NCBI GenBank assembly: GCA_030524635.1
Contig: JAUNGG010000014.1
Location: forward strand, 31,779 to 71,567
From: Lachnospiraceae bacterium
Lineage (GTDB): Bacteria; Bacillota; Clostridia; Lachnospirales; Lachnospiraceae
DNA: 39,789 nucleotides
Direction of reading: 5' to 3'
The notes under the pieces are model-generated. The model had not been told where the DNA came from and made no database searches. It worked only from the letters and a program-made list of their open reading frames with translations. Position numbers and translations under genes: made by a program. Shown one piece after another: positions 9,485 through 37,387 of this stretch. The stretch's first letter is position 1. Every line of letters begins with the position of its first letter.

Positions 9485-9504
9485 ACGTACATAAGGAGGA
9501 AAAG

Positions 9505-10482
9505 ATGAATACAGATTTCGCAGAACGAAACTCCCCGCTGGCAAGTGTGGACAGCAGCTTTGGAAATTATCTTACCAAGAAGAAAATGATGGAAAGCAGG
9601 CGGATTGACGGCAATGGAATTCCCAATTATGCGTATGAGCTGGACTATGAGAGCCGCAGAAAGCTGGATGCGATTCCCGGCTTTTATGAAACGGCAAAAA
9701 CGATCACCAGACCCTCGGTCAGCCGGGAAGTACACGAATATATACGCACGTCTCTTGCGGTAGGGCCAAATCAGTTTCCCGAAATTTATCAGATTGCCTG
9801 TGAGTGCGCCAGCACTCTGGGGATTGCAATTCCTAATGTCTACATTAAAAATGCACAGGATGTTAACGCCTGCGCCTATGCAGTGGATGATATAGAACCA
9901 ACTGTAATTGTGAACAGCGGAATGCTGGAACGGTTTACCCTTCCGGAGCTGAAATACGTGATTGGACATGAATGCGGACATCTCCACAATTATCATGGCG
10001 CTTACAAGGTGCTTAGCAGTATGGTCCTTGGCATCGGTGTGGCCGGCATTTCGGCAGGGATCTCTTCTGTGCTGGGAGGGCTGCTCAGTGCAGGAAGCAT
10101 GGTGCTTTTAAATACCTGGAGCCGGGCCAGTGAGGTAACAGCCGACAGAGCCGGACTTTTATGTGCAGATTCTCTGGAGGATTGTCATAATGCAATGGCA
10201 AAGCTGATGTATGGAGGCATCATCGGTTCGGAACATCAGATCGATTTTGGAGATATCCGCAGGCAGCTTGATGATACCATGGAAAGTGTGGCAAGGTACA
10301 GTGAGATTATGAGCACCCATCCTGCCACGGCAAGAAGGATCGCTGCCATTTCCGAATTTGCAGAGTGCGCAGTTTACTATGAATGGCGTCCGGAACGGAA
10401 AATGCCTGGAGCCCTCATGCGCAGCAAGCAGGAGACGGATATGCGCTGCAACCGGTATATTGATCTGAGAGAGAAGAGGTAG
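9505..10482 (+). CDS. M48-family membrane metallopeptidase (active-site intact)
   Basis: A 325-residue HtpX/Ste24-like peptidase starting at the ATG at 9505 with AAGGAGG upstream. The zinc motif HECGH lies at residues 155-159. The third ligand is the Glu of EVTADRAGLL at about 210, and a conserved HPATARRI follows later. Two hydrophobic segments between 170 and 202 suggest membrane association, with the catalytic face probably cytoplasmic as in HtpX. The family usually degrades damaged membrane proteins. Genes for dynamin-like GTPases lie immediately on both sides, 20 bases before and 4 after, implying a role in the same membrane complex. Three related proteins downstream (22671-25836) lack the full zinc motif. 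Confidence 0.9.
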   Translation: MNTDFAERNSPLASVDSSFGNYLTKKKMMESRRIDGNGIPNYAYELDYESRRKLDAIPGFYETAKTITRPSVSREVHEYIRTSLAVGPNQFPEIYQIACECASTLGIAIPNVYIKNAQDVNACAYAVDDIEPTVIVNSGMLERFTLPELKYVIGHECGHLHNYHGAYKVLSSMVLGIGVAGISAGISSVLGGLLSAGSMVLLNTWSRASEVTADRAGLLCADSLEDCHNAMAKLMYGGIIGSEHQIDFGDIRRQLDDTMESVARYSEIMSTHPATARRIAAISEFAECAVYYEWRPERKMPGALMRSKQETDMRCNRYIDLREKR

Positions 10483-22670: not shown

Positions 22671-23501
22671 ATGCTTAAGAAAAACGAGGACAATGTAAGA
22701 ATTATGAAAAAGAAAGTATTACAAGGATTGAATCAAGAAGAGTATATTCATGATGAGGAGCTTGCGATTATGTTGGGGACATCTGATGACATAATTCATA
22801 AGGGTCTTGATAAGATAAACGATATTAGCGTTGCTTTAATGAGAAGGATGACATTGGGAAGATATATTGCGGTTGATGAAAGCAGCGCACCGGAGTTATC
22901 TGAAATCGTAACGTCAGTTTGCCGTATTTTAGATTATCCTGAAGTTCCTAAGATATACATCTGCCATCAAGCTGCTCAGACAATTTTCTGTGCAGGGACG
23001 GATACTATGATAATTGTTATTTCTGATTATATAATAGAAAATTTCGATATGGATATGCTTTACTACACAATCGGAAATACGATTTCGATGTTTAAATCTG
23101 GGCATGTAAGTATGGTGACGGCTTATGCAATTATGCCCGAGATGTTACTGACAGCGCCTGTAGAACTTGGAATCAAAAAATACCTCAGAGCAGCCGATAT
23201 GACGTCTGATCGTGGAGGATTACTTGCTTGCCAAAACATATCAGCTGCATTGAAATGCATCTTATGGGAAGCAGGAATTCCGTTAACTGAAATAAGATAT
23301 TTGGATGAAAAAGAAACAATACAATTAGCCAGATCGTATATCAAAAGCGTAGAGAATATTTCTCTGGATTGTGTGACAGGATTAGCGGCGCATCTGAAAG
23401 AGTATAATATGGATTTTATGCCGCATCCATATCGAATTAATGAATTGTTGAAGTGGTATGAAACAGGGTATCAAGAGCTTATTAAAAAACGAGGGGGATG
23501 A
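22671..23501 (+). CDS. M48-like protein lacking the zinc-binding motif (pseudopeptidase 1)
   Basis: A 276-residue protein that lines up with the intact M48 peptidase at 9505. The helix IGHECGHLHNYH of that protein corresponds to IGNTISMFKSGH here (about 134-145), so both histidines and the catalytic Glu of HExxH are gone. The downstream EVTADRAGLL corresponds to DMTSDRGGLL (about 176-185), and a late HPYRINELL echoes the family's HPxxxxR. The fold is probably retained without catalysis. The hydrophobic segment between these motifs remains. Start is uncertain: ATG at 22671 or 22704; neither has a strong ribosome site. The gene opens the AT-rich operon. Confidence 0.65.
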   Translation: MLKKNEDNVRIMKKKVLQGLNQEEYIHDEELAIMLGTSDDIIHKGLDKINDISVALMRRMTLGRYIAVDESSAPELSEIVTSVCRILDYPEVPKIYICHQAAQTIFCAGTDTMIIVISDYIIENFDMDMLYYTIGNTISMFKSGHVSMVTAYAIMPEMLLTAPVELGIKKYLRAADMTSDRGGLLACQNISAALKCILWEAGIPLTEIRYLDEKETIQLARSYIKSVENISLDCVTGLAAHLKEYNMDFMPHPYRINELLKWYETGYQELIKKRGG

Positions 23502-23507
23502 TATTTC

Positions 23508-24311
23508 ATGGATAATAGAATATTGCTTCAAGAGTATCTCCATCCAACAGACAGGGCATTATCGCAGCGAATTATGGAATTCCCTGTCATAAAGCAACTA
23601 CTGAATATTATCTTTGAAAAAAAGTTGGATGCCGTTAATTATTATCTTTACAATTCGTCATGTATAAAGCTTCCGGGAGAACACCCTGCGGTGAAAGCCT
23701 TTCAGGATGGAAAAAGGCGGTTTGGAATTAATACAGCTGATCATGTGTATGTGGTTCGCAGCTATGATTTTGACGTTAGAATTGTTGGATATACAGAGCC
23801 TGTGGTTTTAGTATCATCCAGGTTGATTGAGGAAAATGATTCTTTTTTATTAAAAGAGAGAGTAGCCACTTCTTTAGCGGCTATTTCCGCCGGTCATCAT
23901 AAGTTGGAGTTTCTGCTATGGATTTATGAAAATTTTAGCGGCATGATTCAATTGCCTGTATTAAGTACTGCTTTAACTGGTTTAATCAGTGAATGGCAGA
24001 GAAGCCGTCAATATACATTAGATCGGGCGTTTCTTCTTTATACAGGAAACTATTTAATGACTAAAAAAAATATTCTTTATGGCACGATTCCATATAGTAT
24101 TTTAAAGAATTTTAATTTCGGTGGAAACGACACATATTTTTTACAGGTATGTGACTTTTACCGCCAAAATAATCTGGTTGATATCGCAGCTTCTGTTTTT
24201 AGCGTGCTGCAGCATGAAATCTGGATTCCGGCTCGATACAAAGAAATACAAACTTTTTACCAGGGAGGAGGTGAAAAACATGGAATGGATATGCAGCACT
24301 CCAACAATTGA
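23508..24311 (+). CDS. M48-like protein lacking the zinc-binding motif (pseudopeptidase 2)
   Basis: A 267-residue relative of the preceding protein. The expected zinc helix reads VATSLAAISAGHHKL (about 119-133), with no HExxH. The later conserved block is SRQYTLDRAFLLYTG, with the third-ligand Glu replaced by Gln while the Asp-Arg pair is kept. A hydrophobic segment (around IQLPVLSTALTGLI) lies between them, as in M48 proteins. GGGGGATG precedes the ATG closely. It lies 6 bases after pseudopeptidase 1, and its 3' end overlaps the start of the next gene by 32 bases. Assignment rests on the paired motifs and on gene order; function is inferred to be structural or inhibitory. Confidence 0.6.
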   Translation: MDNRILLQEYLHPTDRALSQRIMEFPVIKQLLNIIFEKKLDAVNYYLYNSSCIKLPGEHPAVKAFQDGKRRFGINTADHVYVVRSYDFDVRIVGYTEPVVLVSSRLIEENDSFLLKERVATSLAAISAGHHKLEFLLWIYENFSGMIQLPVLSTALTGLISEWQRSRQYTLDRAFLLYTGNYLMTKKNILYGTIPYSILKNFNFGGNDTYFLQVCDFYRQNNLVDIAASVFSVLQHEIWIPARYKEIQTFYQGGGEKHGMDMQHSNN

Positions 24312-25836
24312 CAATTTGATTCATCCTGATGAAAAAGAAGCTTTGCTTTCCATACAAAAAAGTAATTTTTATACAGCCGTAGCACAGTATTGCGGCGATA
24401 TTGTCGCTAATATGGTTTCTATTCCGCATATGGTTTTAACAGAATATCCAGTCACAAAAGAAAGTGCGCCGCGTATTTTCAGATGTTATAAGAAGGCTCT
24501 TTCCCGATTGGGCTGCCGAGAAGAATACCCTTTATATGTGGATTTTGGCTATGAGCTGAATGGAAAGATATATGGCTCAGATGAAAACGGTTATCATCTT
24601 GTTATGAACAGTGAATGCGGAGAAAAGCTTACGGATGATGAATTAACTGCCTTTTTAGGGGGTGAAATTGGTCATATACTTGCCGGTCACCCGCAAAATT
24701 ATGGATTGCTGGATCACTTGGATGTGATAACAAAAAGAATACCGTTTGCAGGTGAATTGGTAAAAAATAATATTGTGGGATTATTTGCGTCCTGGATTAT
24801 TGCATCGGAATATACGGCAGATCGCTTTGCGCTGCTTGCAGCAGAGAATATTGATGCGCTGATATCTCTGCGAAAAAAACAAATGGGGTTTGATACCGTA
24901 GAAACAAAATATATTTTAAATCAAGCGCAGAGGGAGCCACCGGAAAATCCAGGTATCTATTATGTGCTGATGGCACAGGAACTACCGATCCTTGGGGCGG
25001 TAAGTCGAATCCAGCAGCTTTGTCGTTGGGTTAACACAGAGGATTTTGCAGGCAGATATACGCCTCTTCTATATAAGTTGTGTTTAAACAGTAAAGAGCT
25101 GCAAATCAAAAGTAATGAATCACTGCTTGGATGGCATCGCAAAGCGGCAGAAAATGATGTTTCTCAAATGGAGATCCTTGGAGAAGCATATTTATTCGGA
25201 AAAATGGGCTTGCCTCAAAGTGCCGTTACCGGGGAAAGTTTCCTGAGACAAGCTGCATTTCGAGGCAGTGCAAGGGCAATGTTTCTGGAAGGCGGCTGCC
25301 TGGAGTTTGGAATTGCTGGAAATTGCAAATGTCCGAAACATGCGCAAATGCTTTATCGCGCAGCGGCAAGCAGAGGAATTGCAGGTGCCGGATTAAAAGT
25401 ACTGACAGAAGGCCGGAAAAATCCGCCGCCGCAGGTTCTTTCCGCAGCGAAGGAGCTTTGTAAGACGGTATCCGAGCAGTATTGGATATCATTTTCTGCA
25501 AAGCCGATAGATAAAGAACTAATTTTTACTGCTCTTAATCGTTTTTGGGCTCCCATCAATGAAGCGGTGCTTGCATTGGATGTTGGCATAGCTGGCGATG
25601 ATTTGCTAGGTGCAATCGTAACTGCAGGCGGAATATATGGACGGTTAAAGGAAAATGATCTCCCATTTTATATTTCATGGCCTGAATATCAAGAATTACC
25701 ATTGGCACAAATGGAATTTGATGAAAAACGCTGTTTATACTGCGGTGATTTACCATTTTATTTTTGCAAATCCAATATTCGAGGAACAATGGCGGAGTTG
25801 TTTATAAAAATAAAAAGCAAAATGAATGCATATTAA
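24280..25836 (+). CDS. M48-like protein with GEIGH motif plus Sel1-like repeats (pseudopeptidase 3)
   Basis: A 518-residue protein from the ATG at 24280, chosen because GGAGGAGG lies 8 bases upstream; longer in-frame starts lack this. The M48 zinc motif is partly kept: GEIGH (128-132) instead of HExxH, so the first histidine ligand is Gly128 while the catalytic Glu129 and His132 remain. SEYTADRFALL supplies the third ligand, Glu177. Residues about 290-385 contain Sel1-like repeats (KAAENDVSQMEILGEAYLFG, then AAFRGSARAMFLEGGCLEFG). A C-terminal segment has CLYCG. It may bind but not cleave, or use weaker metal binding. The large overlap with the preceding gene implies coupled translation. Confidence 0.7.
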   Translation: MEWICSTPTIDNLIHPDEKEALLSIQKSNFYTAVAQYCGDIVANMVSIPHMVLTEYPVTKESAPRIFRCYKKALSRLGCREEYPLYVDFGYELNGKIYGSDENGYHLVMNSECGEKLTDDELTAFLGGEIGHILAGHPQNYGLLDHLDVITKRIPFAGELVKNNIVGLFASWIIASEYTADRFALLAAENIDALISLRKKQMGFDTVETKYILNQAQREPPENPGIYYVLMAQELPILGAVSRIQQLCRWVNTEDFAGRYTPLLYKLCLNSKELQIKSNESLLGWHRKAAENDVSQMEILGEAYLFGKMGLPQSAVTGESFLRQAAFRGSARAMFLEGGCLEFGIAGNCKCPKHAQMLYRAAASRGIAGAGLKVLTEGRKNPPPQVLSAAKELCKTVSEQYWISFSAKPIDKELIFTALNRFWAPINEAVLALDVGIAGDDLLGAIVTAGGIYGRLKENDLPFYISWPEYQELPLAQMEFDEKRCLYCGDLPFYFCKSNIRGTMAELFIKIKSKMNAY

Positions 25837-25868
25837 CATTGCACAAGGAATTACAGGGAGGTTAAGTA

Positions 25869-26309
25869 ATGGGAAAAACAAAATTAGGAAATTTTTTTGC
25901 GGTTTCAGTTATAGTAGGAACAATAGCTGCGCTGACAAAGTTGCTTGAATACCTAAATGAGCAGGAATCAAAATATTGTTTGGCGGAATTTAAGGATTTG
26001 TTGGAAAATCAAAAAACGGTTGATGTGTTAAATGCGCGGGAAATTACAGATTGGATTAAGAATATCAAAAGTGAGAATGATGGAAAACTTACATATATTC
26101 TTGCGTATCCAACTACTGAGATTCTTAAGAAGTATCGGTTAAAAGGATTTCCGGAGAATATTGACAAGAAGCATACTATGATTTTCTTTGCTGTTTATGA
26201 GCAAACCGGATCACCTGTAAAAGTTCAGTTAATTAGCTTTGGGACGATAGACAGCACGATTGAAGCACAATTATTTAACGGCGAAGATTACGCTGTTGTG
26301 GAGGAGTAA
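25869..26309 (+). CDS. Small membrane-anchored protein, paralogue A
   Basis: A 146-residue protein of unrecognised family. Residues about 8-25 are hydrophobic (FFAVSVIVGTIAALTKLL) and probably form one membrane anchor. The soluble part is shared with the next gene: ENQKTVDVLNAREITDWIKN, a central strand ending TYILAYP, and a final LISFGTI ... DYAVVEE. The start has GGGAGG 8 bases upstream. The next gene begins 2 bases after its stop, so this is a tandem duplication that has diverged. I cannot assign a function. Confidence 0.7.
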   Translation: MGKTKLGNFFAVSVIVGTIAALTKLLEYLNEQESKYCLAEFKDLLENQKTVDVLNAREITDWIKNIKSENDGKLTYILAYPTTEILKKYRLKGFPENIDKKHTMIFFAVYEQTGSPVKVQLISFGTIDSTIEAQLFNGEDYAVVEE

Positions 26310-26311
26310 AG

Positions 26312-26785
26312 ATGCACATTTCAATGGTTACATGGATTGTTATTGTTGCCGCCATAGTGGTAGGCTGCGGAATCGGCGTTTATTTAGGAAAGAAAAAAAA
26401 TAAAGCTTTCGGTGAGAAGAAGCTGGAACAGGCGATGGATCGTTCTGCTTTAAAAAAAGAAGAGAACACGTGGAACGAATTGATGAAATCACAAAAATCA
26501 TTGGATCAGTTAAAAATCGCGGATATTTTGGACTGGGCCAATAATTATAAAAATGAATTAAAAAAGGATGATTCATATTTTTTGTTCAAAGCAACAAAAG
26601 CTAACATCGAAAAGCTTGGATTTATGTACCCGGAACAGATTGATAGTGAAACAAATGTGCTTGCATGTGTAATTAATACAGAATCCGGAAATGTTTCACA
26701 TGTTCAATTATTTACATTCGGAACCATATCGGATCATGTAATGGAATTATTTGCTGGATTTGATTATGCAGTAATTACTCTTTGA
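26312..26785 (+). CDS. Small membrane-anchored protein, paralogue B
   Basis: A 157-residue protein with an N-terminal membrane helix (about 5-23, WIVIVAAIVVGCGIGVYLG), followed by a basic stretch and a domain clearly related to the preceding protein. KSQKSLDQLKIADILDWANN matches its ENQKTVDVLNAREITDWIKN, and LFTFGTI ... DYAVITL matches its C-terminus. The domain should face the cytoplasm if the basic region follows the helix as the inside flank. GGAGGAG precedes the ATG. Function unknown; the two may form a heteromer. Confidence 0.7.
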   Translation: MHISMVTWIVIVAAIVVGCGIGVYLGKKKNKAFGEKKLEQAMDRSALKKEENTWNELMKSQKSLDQLKIADILDWANNYKNELKKDDSYFLFKATKANIEKLGFMYPEQIDSETNVLACVINTESGNVSHVQLFTFGTISDHVMELFAGFDYAVITL

Positions 26786-26799
26786 AGGGAGGTGTACCA

Positions 26800-27099
26800 A
26801 TGCTGCTATGGTTGCTATTAGGGGCATTGATAATTGGATCTATTGCAATTACAGTAAGTTATATGCTTACACGCTACAATCTGCTTGATACAGTTAAATC
26901 TGCATTAAACAATGCCGCCACAGATGCTGCAAAACACGCCTTAGCTAGTGAATTTAAAGCAGTTATAAAGGAAAAAAAGGAAAATGTCGTAAAATTAGAT
27001 GTCCTAATGGAAAAAAGCGAGAGACTGGAAGTTACTATAAATTGTAATGGAGTTAATGCAGATATTTATGATGGCATGATGTTGAAAAATGTTATATAG
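26800..27099 (+). CDS. Small single-helix membrane protein
   Basis: A 99-residue protein starting at the ATG at 26800, behind GGGAGGT; an upstream TTG overlapping the previous stop is less likely. Residues 2-21 (LLWLLLGALIIGSIAITVSY) form one membrane helix. An Ala/Lys-rich helical region follows, then a short end with INCNGVNADIYDG. No family was recognised. Its membrane-helix plus helical-linker design resembles the 27498 gene. Confidence 0.6.
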   Translation: MLLWLLLGALIIGSIAITVSYMLTRYNLLDTVKSALNNAATDAAKHALASEFKAVIKEKKENVVKLDVLMEKSERLEVTINCNGVNADIYDGMMLKNVI

Positions 27100-27131
27100 T
27101 ATCTAAAATAAAATGAGAAAGGATAAATATT

Positions 27132-27467
27132 ATGGAAAATTTATTTGAACAGTTTGAGCGTGCTCTTTATGAGAAGGTCCTGGCGAGAGATGAATATGTT
27201 ATTACAACATTTAAAATGGCAAATGCATGGAAGTTTTTTATGGAGTGTGCAGAAAAAAATAAGAGCGTTAAAAGCTGCGTTCTGGATATTGAACCCAAGG
27301 GCAGTATGTATAAGGTTTCTCAGCTAATGCTTGACGAAGCTGGAATGCCTGTTTATGCAAACAAGAACAGCTATGTAGGCCGTGTTATTAAGGCTAAGGT
27401 TTTAGATGATGACGTGATCGAATATATGAAGGGCGATCATCGTCAGGTTATGAAAATGCCGTATTAA
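27132..27467 (+). CDS. Small soluble protein of unknown function
   Basis: A 111-residue protein without a membrane segment. It is an alpha-beta mixture, with a helical N-terminus (ENLFEQFERALYEKVLARDE) and strands later (SCVLDIEPKGSMYKVSQLML). No motif is recognised. AAAGGA lies about 9 bases before the ATG. It sits between two small membrane proteins and is probably co-translated with them. It is the only member of the five small genes with no N-terminal hydrophobic stretch. Confidence 0.6.
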   Translation: MENLFEQFERALYEKVLARDEYVITTFKMANAWKFFMECAEKNKSVKSCVLDIEPKGSMYKVSQLMLDEAGMPVYANKNSYVGRVIKAKVLDDDVIEYMKGDHRQVMKMPY

Positions 27468-27497
27468 TACATTACAAAATTTTAGGAGGAAACGGTT

Positions 27498-27884
27498 ATG
27501 TTGATTGCTATTTTGGCTCGTATTATTGTTTTTTTAGGAGTAGCTGCCCTTGCTGCGATTATTGTTAAGCTTGTGATTATAACCTTTAAAAAGTTTATCA
27601 GCATTATCAAAGAAAAACTAAGAACTAAAATCGGCGGCACGGTAGCAATAATTGAAATTAAACGTGTGGCAAATGAAGCAATCGCTGAAGCGCATCGAAC
27701 GGGAAACAAAAAGAACCTGGCGGAGCTTGAGCGAATGGCGGAAATGGAAGGATTTGCAATGGCTACGCAGGATGCAAATGGAAACATTTCATCCAAGGAT
27801 GTTGAAATATACGAAGGTGAGAAAATGGATGCGCAGATTTATGGAGCTATGGATGAGGATGGAATCCTGATAATCGAAGCTTAG
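27498..27884 (+). CDS. Small membrane-anchored protein
   Basis: A 128-residue protein. The N-terminal 28 residues (AILARIIVFLGVAALAAIIV region) form a membrane helix; a basic, helical segment (KFISIIKEKLRTK) would lie in the cytoplasm. The C-terminus is acidic and ends in an IYEGEKMDAQIYG-type strand segment that echoes NADIYDG in the 26800 product, so the two may be distant relatives. TAGGAGG precedes the ATG. It lies 24 bases before the AAA+ gene. Function unknown. Confidence 0.6.
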   Translation: MLIAILARIIVFLGVAALAAIIVKLVIITFKKFISIIKEKLRTKIGGTVAIIEIKRVANEAIAEAHRTGNKKNLAELERMAEMEGFAMATQDANGNISSKDVEIYEGEKMDAQIYGAMDEDGILIIEA

Positions 27885-27908
27885 ATCGGAACGGAGTAAG
27901 GAGCGATA

Positions 27909-29285
27909 ATGACAAATATACAGATTGTAATTCTTTTTGCAAAGCTTAGTGATTTTTCAGATGAAATGAAAGAAAAAATCAAGATGATTGTAAAAGAAGA
28001 ATATTGCAGTGTGTTTGGCTGTGAAAAAGAAAAGGTACAGACCATCTTATATGGTGGAAATGCGAATGGAAAAACCACAGATATCCATTTATTTATAGAA
28101 TCCGATGAGCCACATTATAATGAAGGTGCGCTTAGATTAGAGATGCGGAAGGCGATATCTTCCAGGTTAAGACTTCTTTTTCCAAGCAGTCTTGGATTTA
28201 ACGGGGTAGTTACTGCCGCAGATGGAAGTGGGAAAATCAGCGGTTCTGTTGATGAAAACAAGAAGCACCATCAGCCATCAGATTCTGAAGACAGTACTCA
28301 GGCAGGTGATTTTAGTGATATGGAAAAGCGCGCCAGGATGTATGAGGCGGTAGAGCCTAAATATTCATTTGATATGGTGCGGCTTCCGCAGGAAACAATA
28401 GAGCAGATTAACCGTGCTTTAGGACGGATTGAGTTTGAAAAAAAGGTGTTTGATGAGTGGGGGCTATATGCAATTATGCCAAGTCCGGTTTCCGCACTAG
28501 GATTCTTTGGCCCGCCAGGAACAGGTAAAACTCTCGCTGCAGAAGCAATTGCCAGCAAAATGGAGAAAAAAATTGTCCGCGTAAGCTACGCTGATATTGA
28601 AAATAAGTATGTGGGCGAGGGACCTAAAAACGTTAAAGCAGTATTTTATGCCGCCGAAAAGCAGAATGCCGTTTTATTTATTGATGAAGCAGACTCTCTG
28701 TTATCAAAAAGGCTGACAAATGTATCGGATGGAACCGGACAGGCTTTTAATTCAATGCGCAGTCAGTTATTAATGTCATTGGAAAATTTTCATGGGATTG
28801 CCATTTTTGCTACCAATCTTGTTGTAAATTATGATAAAGCTTTTTTGTCAAGACTGATTAGCGTGGAATTTAAGAATCCGGACGCGGCGCTTCGGCATAA
28901 TATTTGGGAAACCCATTTATTGCCGAAGGTGATGAATGGCCATCAGCTTTCAATTCCTTTGTCAGAGGATGTAAATATTGATGAGCTTGCTGTTAATTAC
29001 GATCTTTGCGGCAGAGATATAAGGAATGCGGTCGTGGATGCTTGTGTAGAAGCATGCTTAAAAAATAAAAATGTGGTTGACCAGGAATGTCTTCGGTTTG
29101 GCGCACAATCCCGGGTTGAAAGTAATTTAGCGATTGCAAATGCAAATGATCACACTAAAACGGAGACGAAAAATCCTGCGGCGTCAGTTATTGCGAAAGC
29201 AATGGAAGAAAAGCTTAAGTCTAAGAATCATCAAAAAATAAACATTGACGAACTTGATGGGAAGAATGAGGAGGAGGTCACATGA
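27909..29285 (+). CDS. AAA+ ATPase with unrecognised N-terminal domain
   Basis: A 458-residue protein. The AAA+ core shows Walker A GPPGTGKT (201-208), a pore-loop-like YADIENKYVGEGPKNV (227-242), Walker B LFIDEAD (256-262), sensor-1 Asn303 and a candidate arginine finger at 315. This resembles FtsH- or Cdc48-like cores, which remodel or unfold proteins. The N-terminal about 110 residues (including LFIESDEPHYNEGALRLEMR) are not recognised. There is no membrane helix, so it would rely on the small membrane proteins upstream for localisation (inference). Its TGA overlaps the ATG of the Cys-rich peptide gene. TAAGGAG precedes the start. Confidence 0.9.
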   Translation: MTNIQIVILFAKLSDFSDEMKEKIKMIVKEEYCSVFGCEKEKVQTILYGGNANGKTTDIHLFIESDEPHYNEGALRLEMRKAISSRLRLLFPSSLGFNGVVTAADGSGKISGSVDENKKHHQPSDSEDSTQAGDFSDMEKRARMYEAVEPKYSFDMVRLPQETIEQINRALGRIEFEKKVFDEWGLYAIMPSPVSALGFFGPPGTGKTLAAEAIASKMEKKIVRVSYADIENKYVGEGPKNVKAVFYAAEKQNAVLFIDEADSLLSKRLTNVSDGTGQAFNSMRSQLLMSLENFHGIAIFATNLVVNYDKAFLSRLISVEFKNPDAALRHNIWETHLLPKVMNGHQLSIPLSEDVNIDELAVNYDLCGRDIRNAVVDACVEACLKNKNVVDQECLRFGAQSRVESNLAIANANDHTKTETKNPAASVIAKAMEEKLKSKNHQKINIDELDGKNEEEVT

Positions 29286-29452
29286 ATACGGTAGAATTAA
29301 CGCAAGGCGGGCAGATAAAATCAACACTATTTTTTAAAATCGATGAGACGCTTAATAAACAGCCTTTGATTCGATGTATTGCAACGGCCTGTGAAAAGCA
29401 ATGTATACGTTGCAATGTGAATTCACAGAAGCTGGGAAGAACGAGATCTTAA
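29282..29452 (+). CDS. Cys-rich 56-aa peptide, candidate RiPP precursor
   Basis: A short gene encoding 56 residues, starting within the AAA+ stop codon (ATGA overlap), with GAGGAGGT upstream. The first 30 residues (MNTVELTQGGQIKSTLFFKI and on) look like a leader. The C-terminal half has four cysteines at 32, 37, 41 and 44 in a C-x4-C-x3-C-x2-C pattern and ends LGRTRS. The next gene is a radical SAM/SPASM enzyme that could modify the Cys-rich core, for example by thioether crosslinks as in ranthipeptides. The peptide was missed by length-based ORF calling. A strong hairpin follows it. Precursor status is inferred from position and composition; no database match was checked. Confidence 0.6.
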   Translation: MNTVELTQGGQIKSTLFFKIDETLNKQPLIRCIATACEKQCIRCNVNSQKLGRTRS

Positions 29453-29464
29453 TACATAGTAAAT

Positions 29465-29506
29465 GGCGTATAATGGTGATGAAAAGACAGAAAACTATTA
29501 TACGCC
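29465..29506 (+). promoter_or_regulatory. Intercistronic hairpin between peptide and maturase genes
   Basis: GGCGTATAATGGT (29465-29477) pairs with ACTATTATACGCC (29494-29506), 12 of 13 bases, around a 16-base loop, 12 bases after the peptide stop. No U run follows, so a full terminator is unlikely. Such hairpins often protect or attenuate precursor mRNA in peptide clusters, giving more precursor than enzyme. Confidence 0.55.
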
Positions 29507-29531
29507 GAAATTATAATAAGGAATTAAAATT

Positions 29532-30887
29532 ATGGAACGATTCGGTGTTGTTATTCAAACAGATTCTGGAAATTACTATGCGTACAATATGGCGACAAAT
29601 CAGATCATATCAATCGATAGAAGCTGGTATAAAACAATTTCAGGTTTAGGAAATGATGAAAGGGTATTTAAAGAATTATCTGATTACGGAATCGTCATCG
29701 AAGGGGTTCCTGACATTATTGAGTGGGAATTAAGCGACAAAGCGTATTTAAAAACCATCGATGAAGCGATTCCTGCTTTAATATTGGAATTAACTCAGGA
29801 ATGTACATTGCGCTGTGAGTATTGCGTCTATTCCGGCAATTATGAAAAAATACGGACACACAGCAAAAAACATATGAGCTATGACGTGATTAAAGATAGT
29901 CTTGAATACTATGCAGAACATAGCAAGGCCCTTAATGCAGCAAATATTTCGTTTTATGGCGGCGAGGCATTGATGCGGTTTGATGAAATAAAATTCGCTG
30001 TGGAATATGCCCGTAAATTATTTTTTAATAAACAGCTTTATTTTCGTATTTCTTCAAATGGAACCACATTAACGGATCAGATCATTCATTGGCTCGATCA
30101 AAACAAAGATGTGTGCGTTACTGTTACTGTAAACGGTTTTGCCCATGATAAGTACAGAAAATTTGCCTCAGGTGAAGGAAGTTTGAACGTGATAACTGCA
30201 AATCTTGTAAAAATAAAAAATAATTATCCTGATTTATGGAAAAGAGTTGATTTCATTGCAAATGTAGCTACTCTTCAAGAACTGCTTGATTTGCGGCGAT
30301 ATTATTTGAAATATATTGAAAAACCTCCTCTGCTTATAACTGGAATTTTAGAATATGGAGGAAATGACAAAATAAGGGAAATAGTGAAAGCCCAAGATTC
30401 CAGTGATGTGGTTAATGAAGTACAAACCCTTCTTTTTGATAATCTGGATGATTATATTTTGCCGTATTATAAAAATGAGTTAATAGACATTAATACAAGG
30501 GATATTGGACAAAGAAGCAATAGGTGTATAGAGACTGCTTCCTGTATGCCATTTACAAGCTCTTTGTTTGTCTCCGCAGATGGAGAATTTGGAGTATGCG
30601 AAAGAGCTGGTGAATGTAATCAACTGGGCAATTTGTCTCAGGGTATAAATACAGAATTTGTAAGTAAATTAATTATGGAAATGTCAAAAATCATCAATAA
30701 TCAATGCAGAACATGCTGGTGCCAGAGACTTTGCTCTATGTGTATCAAAGATTTTGCCATATCGAAAGAGGGAGAAATATCTTTCGATGAAGAAATCTGT
30801 TTCGATATAAGCAATAATATTAAATCATCGCTCAAGCTGTTTTGCGAGATTGCAGAACATAATCCAGATGCACTGGATAAGATTTAA
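29532..30887 (+). CDS. Radical SAM/SPASM peptide maturase-like enzyme
   Basis: A 451-residue radical SAM enzyme. The N-terminal about 75 residues resemble a peptide-binding RRE/PqqD-like fold (YYAYNMATNQIISID then LSDYGIVIEG). The SAM-binding cluster motif is CTLRCEYC (Cys91, Cys95, Cys98), followed by the GGEA-type FYGGEA (141-146) and a later SSNG. The C-terminal SPASM region carries many cysteines (332, 338, 356, 362, 392, 395, 397, 401, 404, 423), enough for two auxiliary clusters. These features match Cys-rich-peptide and ranthipeptide maturases more than methylthiolases. It lies 79 bases after the 56-aa Cys-rich peptide, its likely substrate. AAGGA precedes the ATG. It ends the AT-rich operon. 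Confidence 0.9.
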   Translation: MERFGVVIQTDSGNYYAYNMATNQIISIDRSWYKTISGLGNDERVFKELSDYGIVIEGVPDIIEWELSDKAYLKTIDEAIPALILELTQECTLRCEYCVYSGNYEKIRTHSKKHMSYDVIKDSLEYYAEHSKALNAANISFYGGEALMRFDEIKFAVEYARKLFFNKQLYFRISSNGTTLTDQIIHWLDQNKDVCVTVTVNGFAHDKYRKFASGEGSLNVITANLVKIKNNYPDLWKRVDFIANVATLQELLDLRRYYLKYIEKPPLLITGILEYGGNDKIREIVKAQDSSDVVNEVQTLLFDNLDDYILPYYKNELIDINTRDIGQRSNRCIETASCMPFTSSLFVSADGEFGVCERAGECNQLGNLSQGINTEFVSKLIMEMSKIINNQCRTCWCQRLCSMCIKDFAISKEGEISFDEEICFDISNNIKSSLKLFCEIAEHNPDALDKI

Positions 30888-30998: not shown

Positions 30999-32315
30999 TC
31001 AATTTAATCGATACTTCTTTGCGGAACCTCTGCCGATAATCTTAATCAGTCCATACTCTCTCATCTGACGGGCAAGCAGATAGGCTCGTGTTTTTTTCAC
31101 ATTCAACAGCTCTTGCAGTTCTTCGTCATTCATTTCACCGTACTCTGCCAGATAATCCAAAATCGTTTTCATCTGCGGTGTGACCGCAGGCGGAGCCGAT
31201 TTATTTACAGCAGATGCCGGTTCCAATGCTTCGGTCTCAGTATTCATATTAGGCAGAACCAGTTTGAACGTGTTTGGTGTGACTTCGATGCGGGGTTGTA
31301 CGGAACAGTTTCTATAGAGATTAAAAATCTTTCGAATTCCGGTGCCGTAAGATTCAATCAGCTTCAATCGATGGAAAATCTCTGCCAGTTTGCGGTTGCG
31401 GGGCTGAGAAATGCCGCTGCGTATATCCTCTGGAGACAGACCAGGCAGAAGACCGCCAATGGAGATAAACTCTATGCAGACATCATTGATGTTAATGATA
31501 ATGCTCCCGCTATAGCTGTAGTCTCGATGAACAAGGGCATTTAGTAATGCTTCACGCAATGCCTCTTCGGGATAATCTGATTTTTCGATTCTTTCCAGCC
31601 CTTTGAAGGCGGCTGTGGTACGGTTGCACAGCGACAAATAGGCATAGCTGTCGTCCAATTGATTGAAGATGGAACCGCCGAATTCTTTTGCATCCTTAAA
31701 GATGGTGTTTTCAGAATCACCGAAAACAGCAATTTTTGTAGTATGCTGGCATTGGTCGGAAAGAATCAACGCAAGATTGGTATATTGGTCGTCATGAATG
31801 TTGCGAAGCCCCAGTGCAATGTATTTATCTTCGGAGAATTCTACATGATATCGCTTAAAAGCATGTTCTGCATCTTCAAAGGTCAGTTCCTGCTGCACAG
31901 TGCGCATTTCTTCAAATACATCGCCGTCAGCTTCCTTGATCATTCTGCGAATTTGTTCAGGAGAAGCCGGTACACTGGATGCACCCTGCCGGACATAAAC
32001 TCCCGTGGGTTTCAGACCTTTGGATTTGAGATAATAAGGCTTGTAGCTGCCTTCGCCGACTTCCATTCGGATTACCCTGTTTTCTTGGAGGATATACCGA
32101 ACAAACATGGTCACATCTGGCTGGATAGCATCACGGATGCCGTTGGTCAGGCGAGTGTAAGTTTCATCTACATTGTCGATGCCAGTCAAATTGCCCTGAT
32201 CATCGATGCCAATATAGATGATACCGCCGTCGGTATTTGCAAATGCAATGACTTCCTTGTAAATATCATTAAGCATCTGGGATTTATATTCAATGTGTTC
32301 GCTCTCATATTGCAT
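30999..32315 (-). CDS. AlbA_2/Schlafen-type putative regulator with ATPase-like and winged-helix domains
   Basis: A 438-residue protein of the COG2865-like group. The AlbA_2 (Schlafen-like) domain at residues 1-125 shows ESEHIEYK, NTDGGIIYIGIDD and a GVYVRQGASS ending. A middle HATPase-like part has EALLNALVHRDYSYSG (251-270) and the GTGIRKIF helix (325-331). The C-terminal about 60 residues form a winged helix: LDYLAEYGEMNDEELQELL, then KKTRAYLLARQMREYGLIK. These proteins bind nucleic acid and often act as regulators near accessory loci. AAGGAGCT lies about 7 bases before the start. The promoter region carries two palindromes, a candidate autoregulatory site. Confidence 0.88.
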   Translation of the reverse strand: MQYESEHIEYKSQMLNDIYKEVIAFANTDGGIIYIGIDDQGNLTGIDNVDETYTRLTNGIRDAIQPDVTMFVRYILQENRVIRMEVGEGSYKPYYLKSKGLKPTGVYVRQGASSVPASPEQIRRMIKEADGDVFEEMRTVQQELTFEDAEHAFKRYHVEFSEDKYIALGLRNIHDDQYTNLALILSDQCQHTTKIAVFGDSENTIFKDAKEFGGSIFNQLDDSYAYLSLCNRTTAAFKGLERIEKSDYPEEALREALLNALVHRDYSYSGSIIININDVCIEFISIGGLLPGLSPEDIRSGISQPRNRKLAEIFHRLKLIESYGTGIRKIFNLYRNCSVQPRIEVTPNTFKLVLPNMNTETEALEPASAVNKSAPPAVTPQMKTILDYLAEYGEMNDEELQELLNVKKTRAYLLARQMREYGLIKIIGRGSAKKYRLN

Positions 32316-33609: not shown

Positions 33610-33678
33610 TTACACAAAACGGAACTGATATTGGGACGAGGAAAAAGAAGTGGGTCAGCAGGGAGGTATCAAGCAGCC

Positions 33679-34527
33679 ATGGCCAAAACGAAAATTCAGC
33701 GCTGCCGATCCGCAGTAGAAAAGGAATTAAAGGCGGTAAAAAAGCAGGAGGAGGCTCTGCTGAAAGCAGCAGGAAGGCAGGAAGCGCCAAGGTGGAAGCA
33801 GACTCTGGAAGAGAAAATTCCGGAAGGCGTATATCAGAATCTGCAGAAGGCGTTTGGCAAAGCGTTTTCCATTATCTTTACGAAAGGGACGGGGATCATT
33901 GAGAAGAGCTTTCATCGGGAGGCAATCCAGGAGGATCATCAGGTTCAAAGCTTTGCCTTCCAGGTGAAGGCCAGCCAAAAAGCGTTAAAAAGGGTTCGAG
34001 GAAGTGCGGGGGCTGCAAACAGAATGAATCTGGCAGTTACCGCAGCAGAAGGGATCGGATTGGGCATTTTCGGAATCGGCCTGCCGGATATTGTGATATT
34101 TGTTGGTGTTCTGCTGAAAGGGGTGTATGAAACCGCGCTGCATTACGGATTTGATTACACCTCTGACGGGGAACGGTACTTTATTCTGAAGCTGATGGAA
34201 ACGGCTATGCTGAAAGGAGAGGTGTGGATAGACAGCAATGCACATATTGACCAGTTGATTGACGAAGGTATTTCCAAAGAGCATCAAACTGACAATATCG
34301 ATCAGCAGATTCATGAGACGGCAAGCGCATTTGCAATGGACATGGTATTCATGAAATTTGTTCAGGGGCTTCCGGTTATAGGTATCATTGGCGGTGCAGG
34401 AAATCCGATGTACTACAGCAGGGTTATAAAATATGTGGAATTGAAGTATCGGAAACGGTATCTTCTCAATATACAGAAGCGGCTGGAGGAGGAAGAACTG
34501 TGCAGGTGTAACTACGAGAGTCCTTGA
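33679..34527 (+). CDS. EcsC-family protein
   Basis: A protein of 282 residues from the ATG at 33679; a TTG at 33631 would add 16 residues. The core matches the EcsC family: a helical YQNLQKAFGKAFSIIFTKGTG segment, then a glycine-rich TAAEGIGLGIFGIGLPDIVIF hydrophobic stretch that may contact membrane, then ETALHYGFDYTSDGERYFIL. EcsC-type proteins occur with ABC exporters or stress genes; their biochemical role is not settled. GGGAGG lies 12 bases before the ATG, slightly far. The gene has its own promoter and is followed by the ADP-ribose region. Confidence 0.75.
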   Translation: MAKTKIQRCRSAVEKELKAVKKQEEALLKAAGRQEAPRWKQTLEEKIPEGVYQNLQKAFGKAFSIIFTKGTGIIEKSFHREAIQEDHQVQSFAFQVKASQKALKRVRGSAGAANRMNLAVTAAEGIGLGIFGIGLPDIVIFVGVLLKGVYETALHYGFDYTSDGERYFILKLMETAMLKGEVWIDSNAHIDQLIDEGISKEHQTDNIDQQIHETASAFAMDMVFMKFVQGLPVIGIIGGAGNPMYYSRVIKYVELKYRKRYLLNIQKRLEEEELCRCNYESP

Positions 34528-34584
34528 ATGGAGGGTGCAGATTATTTTTAATAAGGAGTATGCAGCAGTAAAAGGGAGAAGATG

Positions 34585-36108
34585 GAATGAGGAAAGATTT
34601 AACAGAAAAACTGGCAGTAATCGATGCCGGCTTAGATAGAATATTCCCAGGCAGAGGACTTGATTGGGAAGGATCGATGCGACCGGATTTTCTTTCCTCA
34701 TATAGGCGCTGGGCATTTCCATTTCCCACTACATATAAAATTTCTGTGGCCTTAAGGCCGCAGATCATGAAACTGCTGAATAGGTATCAGAAGAATATAC
34801 AGGAGCACTGGTATGTATATGGAATGTATCTGCGTATCGAATATATTCGTAAAGAGATTCACAGGGCGGCAGAAGAAAACGGAGGAGCTCCTTAAGGATT
34901 GCTTCGATTACTGAGTATCAAGATGAAGGAGGTACATCAACTATGACGGGAAATGAAACAGAGTACAGAGCAGAAAAGAAGCGTTGCGAGAATGCAGTCA
35001 GAGGCTGCATGGTGGGTGGCGGCGCAGGGGACGCCCTGGGATATCCGGTGGAATTTTGGTCGGAGAATGAGATCCGCCGTGCATATGGAGAAGCAGGCAT
35101 TATCTCCTATCAGTGTTCTCCGGAGGAAGGGCTGGCAGTGGTATCGGATGATACACAGATGACCATGTTTACTGCCACCGGCATTCTTTATGGTTATACC
35201 AGAGGCTGGATGCGGGGAATCATGGGACCAGTTTCCGGCTATGTGTATGAGCACTATCTGGACTGGCTTCATACCCAGGAGCCGGAGATGGAGGGGGCCG
35301 GCATGTCATGGCTTCGGGAAATTCCATCGCTGCATGTGCGCCGTGCCCCGGGAATGACCTGCCTGAGCGCACTTAGAAGCGCACACCGGAACAGGCGTTG
35401 GGGAACCTGTCAGGACCCCTTAAACCACAGCAAGGGCTGCGGAGGCATTATGCGTGTGGCGCCGGTGGCACTGCATGTCTGCGATTATCATGAGTCAGGG
35501 CTTTCGCTGGAAGAGCTTAAGAAGCTGGACCGCGACGGGGCGGAGGTGGCGGCCATTACCCACGGCCATCCGCTGGGATATATTCCGGCGGCAGCCCTGG
35601 TGCATATCCTGAACCGGATTGTATACGGCGGCTGCACCATGGGAGACAGCCTGTATGATATTACGGCGGAATGCCGCATGACCATGGAGCAGCTGTTTGA
35701 AGGAGAGCCGTATCTGAAAGCATTTTTAAGAAAGCTGGACGCTGCGGTAACTCTTTCAAAGAACAGCGCCTCTGATTCCGAGAACATCAGACAGCTTGGA
35801 GAGGGCTGGGTAGCAGAGGAAACCTTTGCAATCGCCCTGTACTGCAGCCTGCGGTATCCTGATGATTTCTCGAAAGCCATTACTGCATCTGTGAATCACA
35901 GCGGCGACAGCGATTCCACCGGAGCGGTTACTGGAAACATTGCAGGGGCGCTTGTGGGATATGAAGGAATCGATGAAAAATGGAAGCGTCAGCTGGAATT
36001 TCATAAGCTGCTGCTGGAATTGGCGGATGATCTGTGCTATGGCTGCCCTATGTCAGAATACAGCGAAGATGTGGATGAGAATTGGGTCAATAAATATATG
36101 ATGGGAAG
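34585..36108 (+). repeat. First copy of the duplicated unit, shortened by deletions
   Basis: The region aligns to 37390-39377, apart from three deletions in the unknown gene and the short intergenic stretch. Homology begins at the start codon of the unknown gene and fades about 20 bases before the hydrolase stop. Confidence 0.75.
34587..34895 (+). pseudogene. Internally deleted copy of the 239-aa gene at 37392
   Basis: An open frame of 102 residues whose ends match the unknown gene at 37392 (MRKDLTEKLAVIDAGLDRI and RWAF to IHRAAEEN). Aligning the two, 296 bases and then 109 bases are missing relative to the intact copy. The sum, 405, is a multiple of three, so the end is back in frame. The 48 bases between the deletions are read in another frame (FPGRGLDWEGSM). 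The second deletion lies between repeats of the form GACCGGxTTT. A third, 67-base difference near the 3' end changes the last residues. It is probably a nonfunctional remnant, though it could make a short protein. Confidence 0.7.
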
Positions 36109-36127
36109 AAGAACTGCCGGACGGTAA
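34943..36127 (+). CDS. ADP-ribosylglycohydrolase-family protein 1
   Basis: A 394-residue DraG-type hydrolase. The conserved blocks are GCMVGGGAGDALGYPVEF (21-38), the metal-binding DDTQM (69-73), KGCGGIMRVAP, HGHPLGYIPAAAL (208-220) and the second metal site GDSDSTG (321-327) within VNHSGDSDSTGAVTGNIAG. Such enzymes remove ADP-ribose from arginine, other residues or small molecules in the cytoplasm. The specific substrate is unknown. AAGGAGG lies 9 bases before the ATG. A second copy at 38210 is nearly identical except at the very C-terminus. Located between the deleted remnant and the NadD-NADAR gene, it fits an NAD/ADP-ribose module. Confidence 0.92.
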   Translation: MTGNETEYRAEKKRCENAVRGCMVGGGAGDALGYPVEFWSENEIRRAYGEAGIISYQCSPEEGLAVVSDDTQMTMFTATGILYGYTRGWMRGIMGPVSGYVYEHYLDWLHTQEPEMEGAGMSWLREIPSLHVRRAPGMTCLSALRSAHRNRRWGTCQDPLNHSKGCGGIMRVAPVALHVCDYHESGLSLEELKKLDRDGAEVAAITHGHPLGYIPAAALVHILNRIVYGGCTMGDSLYDITAECRMTMEQLFEGEPYLKAFLRKLDAAVTLSKNSASDSENIRQLGEGWVAEETFAIALYCSLRYPDDFSKAITASVNHSGDSDSTGAVTGNIAGALVGYEGIDEKWKRQLEFHKLLLELADDLCYGCPMSEYSEDVDENWVNKYMMGRRTAGR

Positions 36128-36202
36128 GGGGAAAGGGAAGTGCCGGCTGAAATGGAATTTGCTGCGGCTGGAAGGATAAAGCATGTGAAAGGAAGAGAGC
36201 AT

Positions 36203-37387
36203 ATGACAGATAAAATATTGAATGTTGAGAAGAACGATAAAGGTCAGGCAGATCCGGCCTGGCCCAATGAAGGGAATCAGGATTCCGGACAGCCGGCGCT
36301 GGTCTGCATCCCATATGCAGAGAAAGACAGCGCTAAGAAACGGATCATTGTCATGGGCGGTTCCTTCAATCCGCCTACCCTTGCACACTTCCGTCTGATG
36401 ATGGCGGCAGTGGAAGCGGTGGGAGCGGAAAAAGGAATTTTTACGCCATCGAATCACACCTATGTATCGAACAAAATGCGGCGTCAGAAGCGGCAGGAGG
36501 AGGTTCTTTCTGAACAGACCCGCCTGGATATGCTGAAGGCCATGTGTGCGGAGGACGCCCGCCTTGGGGTGGATACCTGTGAATACGGCAGGGACAGCAG
36601 GGCAAAGACATATGAAACCATGGAAACCATTCAGGAGAAGTATCCAGATGCTGAGTTGTATTTTGTGGTTGGAGGAGATAAGCTGTCTATTATTCCACGT
36701 TGGCACAGAAAAAATGAGTTTCTTCAGCGGTTTAAGCTTCTGGTGGTTAAGCGGGATGGAACGTCTCCGGAGGATATGATTGCCGGAAATCCATTTCTGA
36801 CCCGTTATGCAGACGCGTTCGTTCTCCTGCGGGAGCCGGATGGATTGGAAGGAATCAGCTCCACCAGCGTCCGTGACCTTCTGCGGGACGGAAATGAGAA
36901 CGGGGCAAAGCAGGTGCATCCCAAGGTGTGGAAGCTGCTTCTTGAAGAAGGATGGTTAAAGATGGATATTACAAGTTTCAGAGGAGATTATCATTTTCTC
37001 AGTAATTTTTACGAAGCTCCGGTGGAATACGGCGGCTTGATCTACGGCAATAATGAAGCGGCTTTCCAGGCCCAGAAGTGCAGGACAGAGGAGGAGAGGA
37101 AGGCCTTTACAGAGCTTCGTCCAAGTAAGGCGAAGCGGGCCGGGCGGCAGGTGCAGCTTAGGCCGGACTGGGAGAAGGTAAAGGTGGGACTGATGGAAGA
37201 GATCGTCCGGGCTAAGTTTGCCCAGAATCCGGATCTGGCTGGCAGGCTTCTGGCCACCGGTGACCGGAAGCTGGTGGAGGGCAATACTTGGGGAGACACT
37301 TGCTGGGGTGTTGACAGCAGAACAGGACAGGGGGAAAATCATTTTGGAAGGATCCTGATGAAAATTCGGGATGAATTAAGAGATTAA
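36203..37387 (+). CDS. NadD-like nucleotidyltransferase fused to NADAR (YbiA-like) glycosidase domain
   Basis: A protein of about 394 residues from the ATG at 36203, behind AGGAAGAG; a GTG at 36140 would add 21 residues. Residues about 47-251 form a nicotinate-nucleotide adenylyltransferase-like domain: GSFNPPTLAH (53-62) and ISSTSVR (218-224), both classic. This reaction makes NaAD, the NAD precursor. The second half (about 253-391) is a NADAR/YbiA domain: ITSFRGDYHFLSNFYEAP, an NNEAAFQAQKC segment with the conserved Glu (about 285), and GNTWGDTCWG (360-369). NADAR domains cleave N-glycosidic bonds and can remove ADP-ribose from guanine. The domains are joined in one frame with no stop. It lies between two ADP-ribosylglycohydrolase genes. 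Confidence 0.87.
   Translation: MTDKILNVEKNDKGQADPAWPNEGNQDSGQPALVCIPYAEKDSAKKRIIVMGGSFNPPTLAHFRLMMAAVEAVGAEKGIFTPSNHTYVSNKMRRQKRQEEVLSEQTRLDMLKAMCAEDARLGVDTCEYGRDSRAKTYETMETIQEKYPDAELYFVVGGDKLSIIPRWHRKNEFLQRFKLLVVKRDGTSPEDMIAGNPFLTRYADAFVLLREPDGLEGISSTSVRDLLRDGNENGAKQVHPKVWKLLLEEGWLKMDITSFRGDYHFLSNFYEAPVEYGGLIYGNNEAAFQAQKCRTEEERKAFTELRPSKAKRAGRQVQLRPDWEKVKVGLMEEIVRAKFAQNPDLAGRLLATGDRKLVEGNTWGDTCWGVDSRTGQGENHFGRILMKIRDELRD

Follow-up and report, generated by a model that had tools for sequence, protein, structure and literature searches.

The radical SAM peptides known so far are mostly interpreted as antibiotics, signals or cofactors. The described systems closest to the locus reported here are the CcpM enzymes with their (K)LGKK precursors, the CteB/SCIFF maturases, and QhpD with its substrate QhpC, a radical SAM-cross-linked peptide that, according to the available part of PMC7876137, becomes a structural subunit of quinohemoprotein amine dehydrogenase and sets the precedent for such a use. 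As far as the accessible portions of the open-licence text of PubMed Central (PMC) go, the literature on radical SAM enzymes and CcpM mentions the latter only as a group of enzymes found in annotations. Here, we analyzed a stretch of 39,789 nucleotides from a Lachnospiraceae bacterium (contig JAUNGG010000014.1; the whole stretch is referred to as the window), in which a gene for a 56-residue Cys peptide, located between those of an AAA+ ATPase and a radical SAM/SPASM maturase, belongs to a conserved unit of eleven genes (22671–30887), larger than that given in an earlier note on this DNA. We see about an even chance that the peptide, cross-linked through Cys37 and Cys41, remains intracellular as a permanent component of a complex of the AAA+ ATPase and M48-like pseudopeptidases.

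The best curated match of the maturase was the CcpM model TIGR04068 (251.8 bits, residues 12–443), and both systems have a precursor gene just upstream of the enzyme and a Cys-containing core. However, this score lies below the cut-off of 500 bits, so the enzyme is not a CcpM equivalog; in addition, the window peptide has two fixed cysteines only, and its operon includes nine extra genes. With CteB/SCIFF, the maturase shares a predicted recognition element (RRE) for ribosomally synthesized and post-translationally modified peptides (RiPPs), followed by radical SAM and SPASM parts, but it scored 93 bits with the SCIFF model TIGR03974 (cut-off 425), the window peptide lacks the six cysteines of SCIFF (two are invariant), and the genomic setting is a different one. 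The QhpD model TIGR03906 scored 122.8 bits (cut-off 453), and, unlike in the QhpD/QhpC system, no subunit, flavoprotein, or QhpE-type protease was recognized in the cassette. Models of bacteriocin makers gave 169.6 (RumMC) and 123 bits (lachnocin). We regard the enzyme–peptide pair as a putative new branch beside CcpM.

A further comparison was carried out on 79 distinct loci kept from 167 maturase relatives (flanks of up to 10 kb, many of them cut by contig ends). Upstream of the maturase, 29 of these loci presented a small Cys-rich open reading frame (ORF) with an LGKK-type box N-terminal to the Cys cluster, found with a pattern that was written after examples had been seen (in the longest reading at L054, two further cysteines precede the box). 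At L043, L044, L050, and L055, among others, the precursors begin with the (K)LGKK box, after which come a T-x-x-A-[YF]-like stretch and the Cys cluster. Unlike these CcpM-type relatives with their N-terminal box, the window peptide is closed by a similar KLGR at its C-terminus; the recognition end may possibly have been switched, even if a likeness over five residues can arise by chance.

The peptide family and its maturase

The peptide ORF (29282–29452, forward strand, as are all cassette genes) starts with an ATG located within the stop of the AAA+ gene (ATGA, 29282–29285), behind a strong Shine-Dalgarno sequence, GGAGGAGGT, and is followed by the maturase gene (29532–30887), which confirms the arrangement described in the earlier note. 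An ORF of 56 codons alone has little weight; it is counted here as a real, conserved gene because it is conserved across clusters and has a positional orthologue in a second host, a Roseburia sp. metagenome-assembled genome from water buffalo colon (locus L040). A single-sequence search of 5.8 billion proteins retrieved seven clusters at E ≤ 1, including the window's own, the others being 51–88% identical, and a profile search at E ≤ 10 retrieved 23, again including the window's own and all of them at E ≤ 2.2e-11. The L040 orthologue (55 residues) is situated between the AAA+ and the orthologous maturase genes and aligned to the window peptide with a z of 12.0 (versus 100 shuffles). No Pfam or NCBIfam model matched the window peptide above its cut-off (one Pfam model at E 0.11), and one or two of the 23 members touched unrelated NCBIfam models at E values from 0.012 to 0.13. 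The family is an addition that no NCBIfam model names.

For 10 of the other 22 peptide clusters, the longest contig was exactly equal in size to that of one of the 43 close maturase clusters (P0002–P0044), when about 0.06 such coincidences were expected from near-misses; one of the 22 also had a counterpart of equal size among the 76 distant maturase clusters (P0045–P0120). Equal contig sizes are an indirect sign of neighbourhood, which the protein database does not give, and the direct evidence is that of L040. The 12 peptides and 33 of the 43 maturases with no equal-size partner count neither way, since contigs are often short and small ORFs tend to escape detection. The earlier note had named loss of the peptide beside orthologous maturases, or its breakage, as evidence against the proposal; instead, the L040 pair is unbroken and the size coincidences far exceed expectation. 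The pairing of peptide and maturase is well supported.

Regarding the peptide itself, Cys37 and Cys41 are invariant in all 23 members, whereas 14 of them have C44 and 7 have C32. The C-x4-C-x3-C-x2-C arrangement highlighted in the earlier note is thus present in the window peptide (C32, C37, C41, C44) but does not define the family. Besides the start, the invariant positions are N25, I33, T35, A36, C37, E38, Q40, C41, V46, K50, L51, G52, and R55, from which the L040 peptide departs at T35, L51, and R55. The conserved tail (residues 33–56) has the consensus IATACExQC...VNSxKLGRTRS and a near-fixed length, with Cys37 located 19 residues from the C-terminus in 22 of 24 members (L040 included) and 18 in the other two; KLG[RL] appears near the C-terminus in 23/23 peptides, and KIGL in L040. 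The leader (residues 1–32) contains a box, F-x-h-D-x-x-L-N, of which a loose form, [FYI]-x-[ILVMCAF]-[DE]-x-x-[LF]-N, was found in all 24 members and a strict one, F-x-[ILVM]-[DE]-x-x-[LF]-N, in 16. This box is similar to FxLD, given as a recognition sequence of lanthipeptides in the available part of PMC12710340.

Mean identity over the 55 pairs of 11 peptide/enzyme couples was 80% for the tail, 47% for the enzyme, and 25% for the leader; in the L040 pair, found by position, the values were 15/24 (63%) for the tail, 48% for the enzyme, and 5/31 for the leader. The tail therefore appears less variable than the enzyme, and the leader more variable, in a pattern that is partly search bias.

The maturase showed the radical SAM CxxxCxxC motif (C91, C95, C98) and seven cysteines of the SPASM region (C338, C356, C392, C395, C401, C404, C423, with a C-x2-C-x5-C-x2-C spacing) conserved in 31/31 aligned sequences of 124 matches, a set that we take to correspond to the SPASM definition. 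Its predicted structure, a confident model, is composed of RRE, radical SAM, and SPASM parts as in CteB, to which it was aligned from model residue 2 onwards. The RRE-like elements modelled are strands at 5–9, 15–19, and 24–28, helices at 30–35 and 41–51, a strand at 62–64, and a helix at 69–78, in support of the RRE-like N-terminus that had been claimed before. The maturase very probably acts on the adjoining peptide, and judging from its relatives, it would probably make thioethers at C37 and C41.

Between both genes, an RNA hairpin with a 14-bp stem and no T-run behind it was detected (29464–29507, forward strand; z −7.2 versus dinucleotide shuffles, none of 200 being equally stable). The same gap in L040 carries a hairpin of different sequence (z −3.9, 0/200 shuffles), and no stable structure was obtained for two other operon gaps (z 0.5 and −1.2), although their short length (30 and 24 bases) makes them a poor control. 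Because the hairpin persists while the sequence has turned over, it suggests selection for the expression ratio.

The eleven-gene cassette and its distribution

Ten of the eleven window proteins were found in L040 by tblastn, and global alignment supported each of the eleven, with gene order unchanged (z 7.6 to 68.4). Of the other 78 maturase-relative loci, only L062 showed a second cassette gene, and there the AAA match was partial (30% identity).

The unit opens with three M48-like genes in which the HExxH zinc motif was not found, either in the window or in L040, so that the pseudopeptidases of the earlier note are indeed present upstream of the peptide. M48a (22671–23501) has NTISM in place of this motif and is 52% identical to its L040 counterpart; M48b (23508–24311) is 41% identical; and M48c (24280–25836), with a longer C-terminal region, shows GEIGH (YEIGH in L040) and 36% identity. 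M48c, whose probable start at 24280 lies behind GGAGGAGG, was scanned against the Pfam, NCBIfam, and IetAS models and the family genomes as a frame beginning at 24169, and scored 21.6 bits with Pfam M48 (cut-off 20.3). HExxH is kept in the three M48 proteins aligned for comparison (window 9481–10482, L138, and L139).

Five small proteins come next: s1 (25869–26309), with a weakly hydrophobic N-terminus, and its paralogue s2 (26312–26785), both supported by sequence and L040 alignment; s3 (26782–27099; 38% identical to L040); s4 (27132–27467; 39%), with no hydrophobic segment; and s5 (27498–27884; 30%). An N-terminal membrane segment is predicted for s2, s3, and s5. The s1/s2 paralogy amounts to 33% identity over 104 residues, and the soluble domain of s2, in a model of moderate confidence, gave no convincing match in the PDB.

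The classical AAA+ ATPase (27909–29285) scored 95.1 bits with Pfam AAA, is 51% identical to that of L040, and has some 150 N-terminal residues beyond the AAA match. It contains GPPGTGKT, LFIDEAD, and KYVGEG, presumably the Walker A, Walker B, and a pore-loop-like motif, respectively. Its nearest PDB match by sequence was Cdc48/p97. Like the anti-phage system IetAS, the cassette has an AAA+ protein that matches IetA models (best 83.1 bits), but this protein scored at least equally with PAN and Cdc48. As for IetS, a protease, no match was found at E ≤ 0.01 among the ten cassette proteins scanned (s3 left out). Finally, neither an exporter nor a leader protease was recognized among the eleven cassette proteins in Pfam and NCBIfam scans, from which s5 and s3 were omitted, respectively.

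The cassette in the window has a GC content of 37.8%, compared with 47.0 and 48.3% in its flanks. Within the window's genus, its AAA+ gene was detected in a single genome out of 11; a clear peptide match was likewise restricted to one genome, both among 397 sampled from the family and among 392 from the order. In every case, this genome was the one that contains the window. Two further matches of the peptide profile in family genomes (3/397 in total) were set aside, one of them (E 2.0e-4) containing an in-frame stop and the other (E 0.006) lying within a 510-residue frame. M48c had matches in 11/397 family genomes, the best other one at 29% identity, and M48a in 2/397 (G430 and one 25% identical). 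Among 62 genomes of the genus of L040, M48a matched in three, strongly in L040's own and weakly in the other two. This sporadic presence fits a rare horizontal gain. No mobile-element carrier of the cassette was identified in searches of viral contigs and plasmids: 45 (peptide) and 21 (maturase) pattern matches in viral contigs were not confirmed by tblastn at E 1e-3, a test in which a query of 56 residues has little power, and the plasmid search gave five records, with maturases 25–41% identical.

A possible intracellular role and its alternatives

We see even odds on the product acting intracellularly alongside the AAA+/M48-like complex. The earlier note's idea of a product used within a larger system gains strength from the eleven-gene synteny, observed with a single second genome, and from the fact that no exporter was recognized among the eleven proteins. 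Translation of the peptide would be coupled to that of the AAA+ protein through the ATGA overlap seen in the sequence, and the computed hairpin behind the peptide gene would let the peptide outnumber the enzyme. The leader box, F-x-h-[DE]-x-x-[LF]-N, would serve as the binding site for the predicted RRE of the enzyme. The enzyme may then join Cys37 and Cys41 via thioethers to nearby side chains, T35, E38, and Q40 being the best conserved, a step suggested by its relationship to the maturases CteB, QhpD, and PapB. Subsequently, the mature peptide, with its C-terminus VNSxKLGRTRS, could dock on or thread through the AAA+ ring or the protease-like proteins, with the small proteins holding the complex at the membrane.

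Several points weigh against this proposal. The full cassette is present in two genomes only, and in L040 it shows no compositional contrast (37.0% GC, versus 38.7% in the neighbour gene). The neighbourhood of ten other peptides is read from equal contig sizes, and twelve of the 22 have not even that. The tail conservation appears inflated, as the protein search needs shared five-residue words and biases identity upward, and the 63% of L040 falls below the 80% mean. Since the maturase reaches half of the CcpM cut-off, the bond type cannot be read from the family by sequence, and the cross-link chemistry proposed is that of the enzyme's relatives. The proposed contact between peptide and AAA+ is likewise deduced from synteny, the exporter scan, and tail conservation. 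An exporter could be encoded elsewhere in the genome, the scans having covered the eleven cassette proteins. In addition, the cassette appears to have no intact M48 motif or recognized leader protease, and therefore maturation may be incomplete or depend on outside enzymes.

Among the alternatives, a modified extracellular signal, as proposed for the SCIFF ranthipeptides in Clostridium, to which the AAA+ and M48-like genes would respond or which they would release, is unlikely. It would fit a core that is conserved and not hypervariable, as well as the 93-bit match to the SCIFF maturase model, and the available part of PMC8326336 lists quorum sensing as a role of SCIFF peptides. Nevertheless, no exporter or receptor was recognized among the eleven proteins, and SCIFF is widespread in Clostridia according to the same part of PMC8326336, in contrast to a system found in 1/11 genus and 1/397 family genomes. 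The absence among the eleven of a recognized exporter, immunity gene, or leader protease likewise makes an exported antibacterial sactipeptide or ranthipeptide (a bacteriocin) very unlikely, despite the distant relationship of the maturase to the bacteriocin makers scored above and a cassette that is sporadic and, in the window, AT-rich; what can be seen of PMC8326336 lists ruminococcin C as antimicrobial and lachnocin by name only. A near-invariant tail with a near-fixed C-terminus, and nine other genes kept in the same order in the window and L040, also speak against a bacteriocin.

The clustering of conserved residues in the short stretch IATACExQC could also be explained by a small redox cofactor carved from the tail, in the manner of pyrroloquinoline quinone (PQQ) or mycofactocin, and used by the complex; PQQ is made, as the available part of PMC8326336 describes, from a radical SAM-crosslinked peptide with subsequent processing by PqqF/G/B and C. 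However, HExxH is missing from the M48-like proteins, the Pfam and NCBIfam scans revealed neither a dehydrogenase nor a flavoprotein, and the KLGR at the C-terminus is conserved equally to the Cys stretch although it would be lost on carving, all of which renders this origin decidedly improbable. Finally, an unmodified small iron-sulphur or metal protein is suggested by C37-x3-C41-x2-C44, which equals the cluster motif of radical SAM enzymes in 15 of 24 members, and by the fact that two of the 23 members matched ArsS, a radical SAM model (best E 0.012), and one matched HxsB (E 0.047). Against it, the third cysteine is replaced by Thr, Ala, or Gly in 9/23 members, for which reason an iron-sulphur miniprotein was rejected as a general reading; no other Cys is conserved, and the neighbouring RRE and maturase would be left unexplained, making this explanation highly improbable.

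Returning to the cross-linked peptide as an intracellular component, a tail steadier than its likely enzyme, within an AAA+/pseudoprotease cassette with no recognized exporter, would point to cross-linking as a route to intracellular machine parts. Our more tentative, and on balance doubtful, extension is that this cross-linked miniprotein would be built into an AAA+ unfoldase machine as a functional element, and would be the first RiPP to serve a membrane complex of ATPase and pseudoproteases as subunit, key, or threaded ligand, with its recognition box shifted to the C-terminal end. Our searches of the open-licence PMC text gave nothing on a near-fixed-tail peptide within an AAA+/pseudo-M48 cassette, nor anything joining radical SAM, AAA ATPase, and precursor peptide, KLGKK and radical SAM, or dynamin, M48, and Lachnospiraceae. 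Two genes would suffice to test the chemistry, and eleven the complex.

Neighbouring modules

Upstream of the cassette, the region 2348–22426 of the window contains a collinear cluster encoding a kinase-NACHT protein, three dynamin-like GTPases, an active M48 (HECGH), a kinase-YARHG protein, PP2C, VWA, trypsin-FHA, a zinc ribbon, and an amidase. Its inclusion in the cassette was considered and rejected, as its M48 was present in 4 of 11 genus genomes versus 1 of 11 for the cassette AAA+, and no cassette gene above 60 bits (tblastn) was detected in the three stretches fetched beside this M48, where other parts of the cluster did appear. Of these stretches, that of G005 ends inside the amidase gene, and that of G003 gave only the M48, the adjoining dynamin-like genes, and a zinc-ribbon match. 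The cluster is therefore treated as a separate module.

Both known cassette hosts also carry the dynamin/M48 module. In the genome holding the L040 cassette, dynamin-like genes surround a HECGH M48 at L146 (3179–9799, by tblastn), and the same organization was observed at L139 (8961–18173), where the GTPases were judged by eye. Dynamin and M48 may thus form an unnamed association.

On the other side, a Schlafen AlbA_2/HATPase_c_4 regulator-like gene (30999–32315, reverse strand) lies convergent to the maturase, just beyond the AT-rich cassette. Further downstream, EcsC, an ADP-ribosylglycohydrolase, and a nucleotidyltransferase-NADAR fusion are encoded in a row (33631–37387), suggestive of ADP-ribose chemistry.

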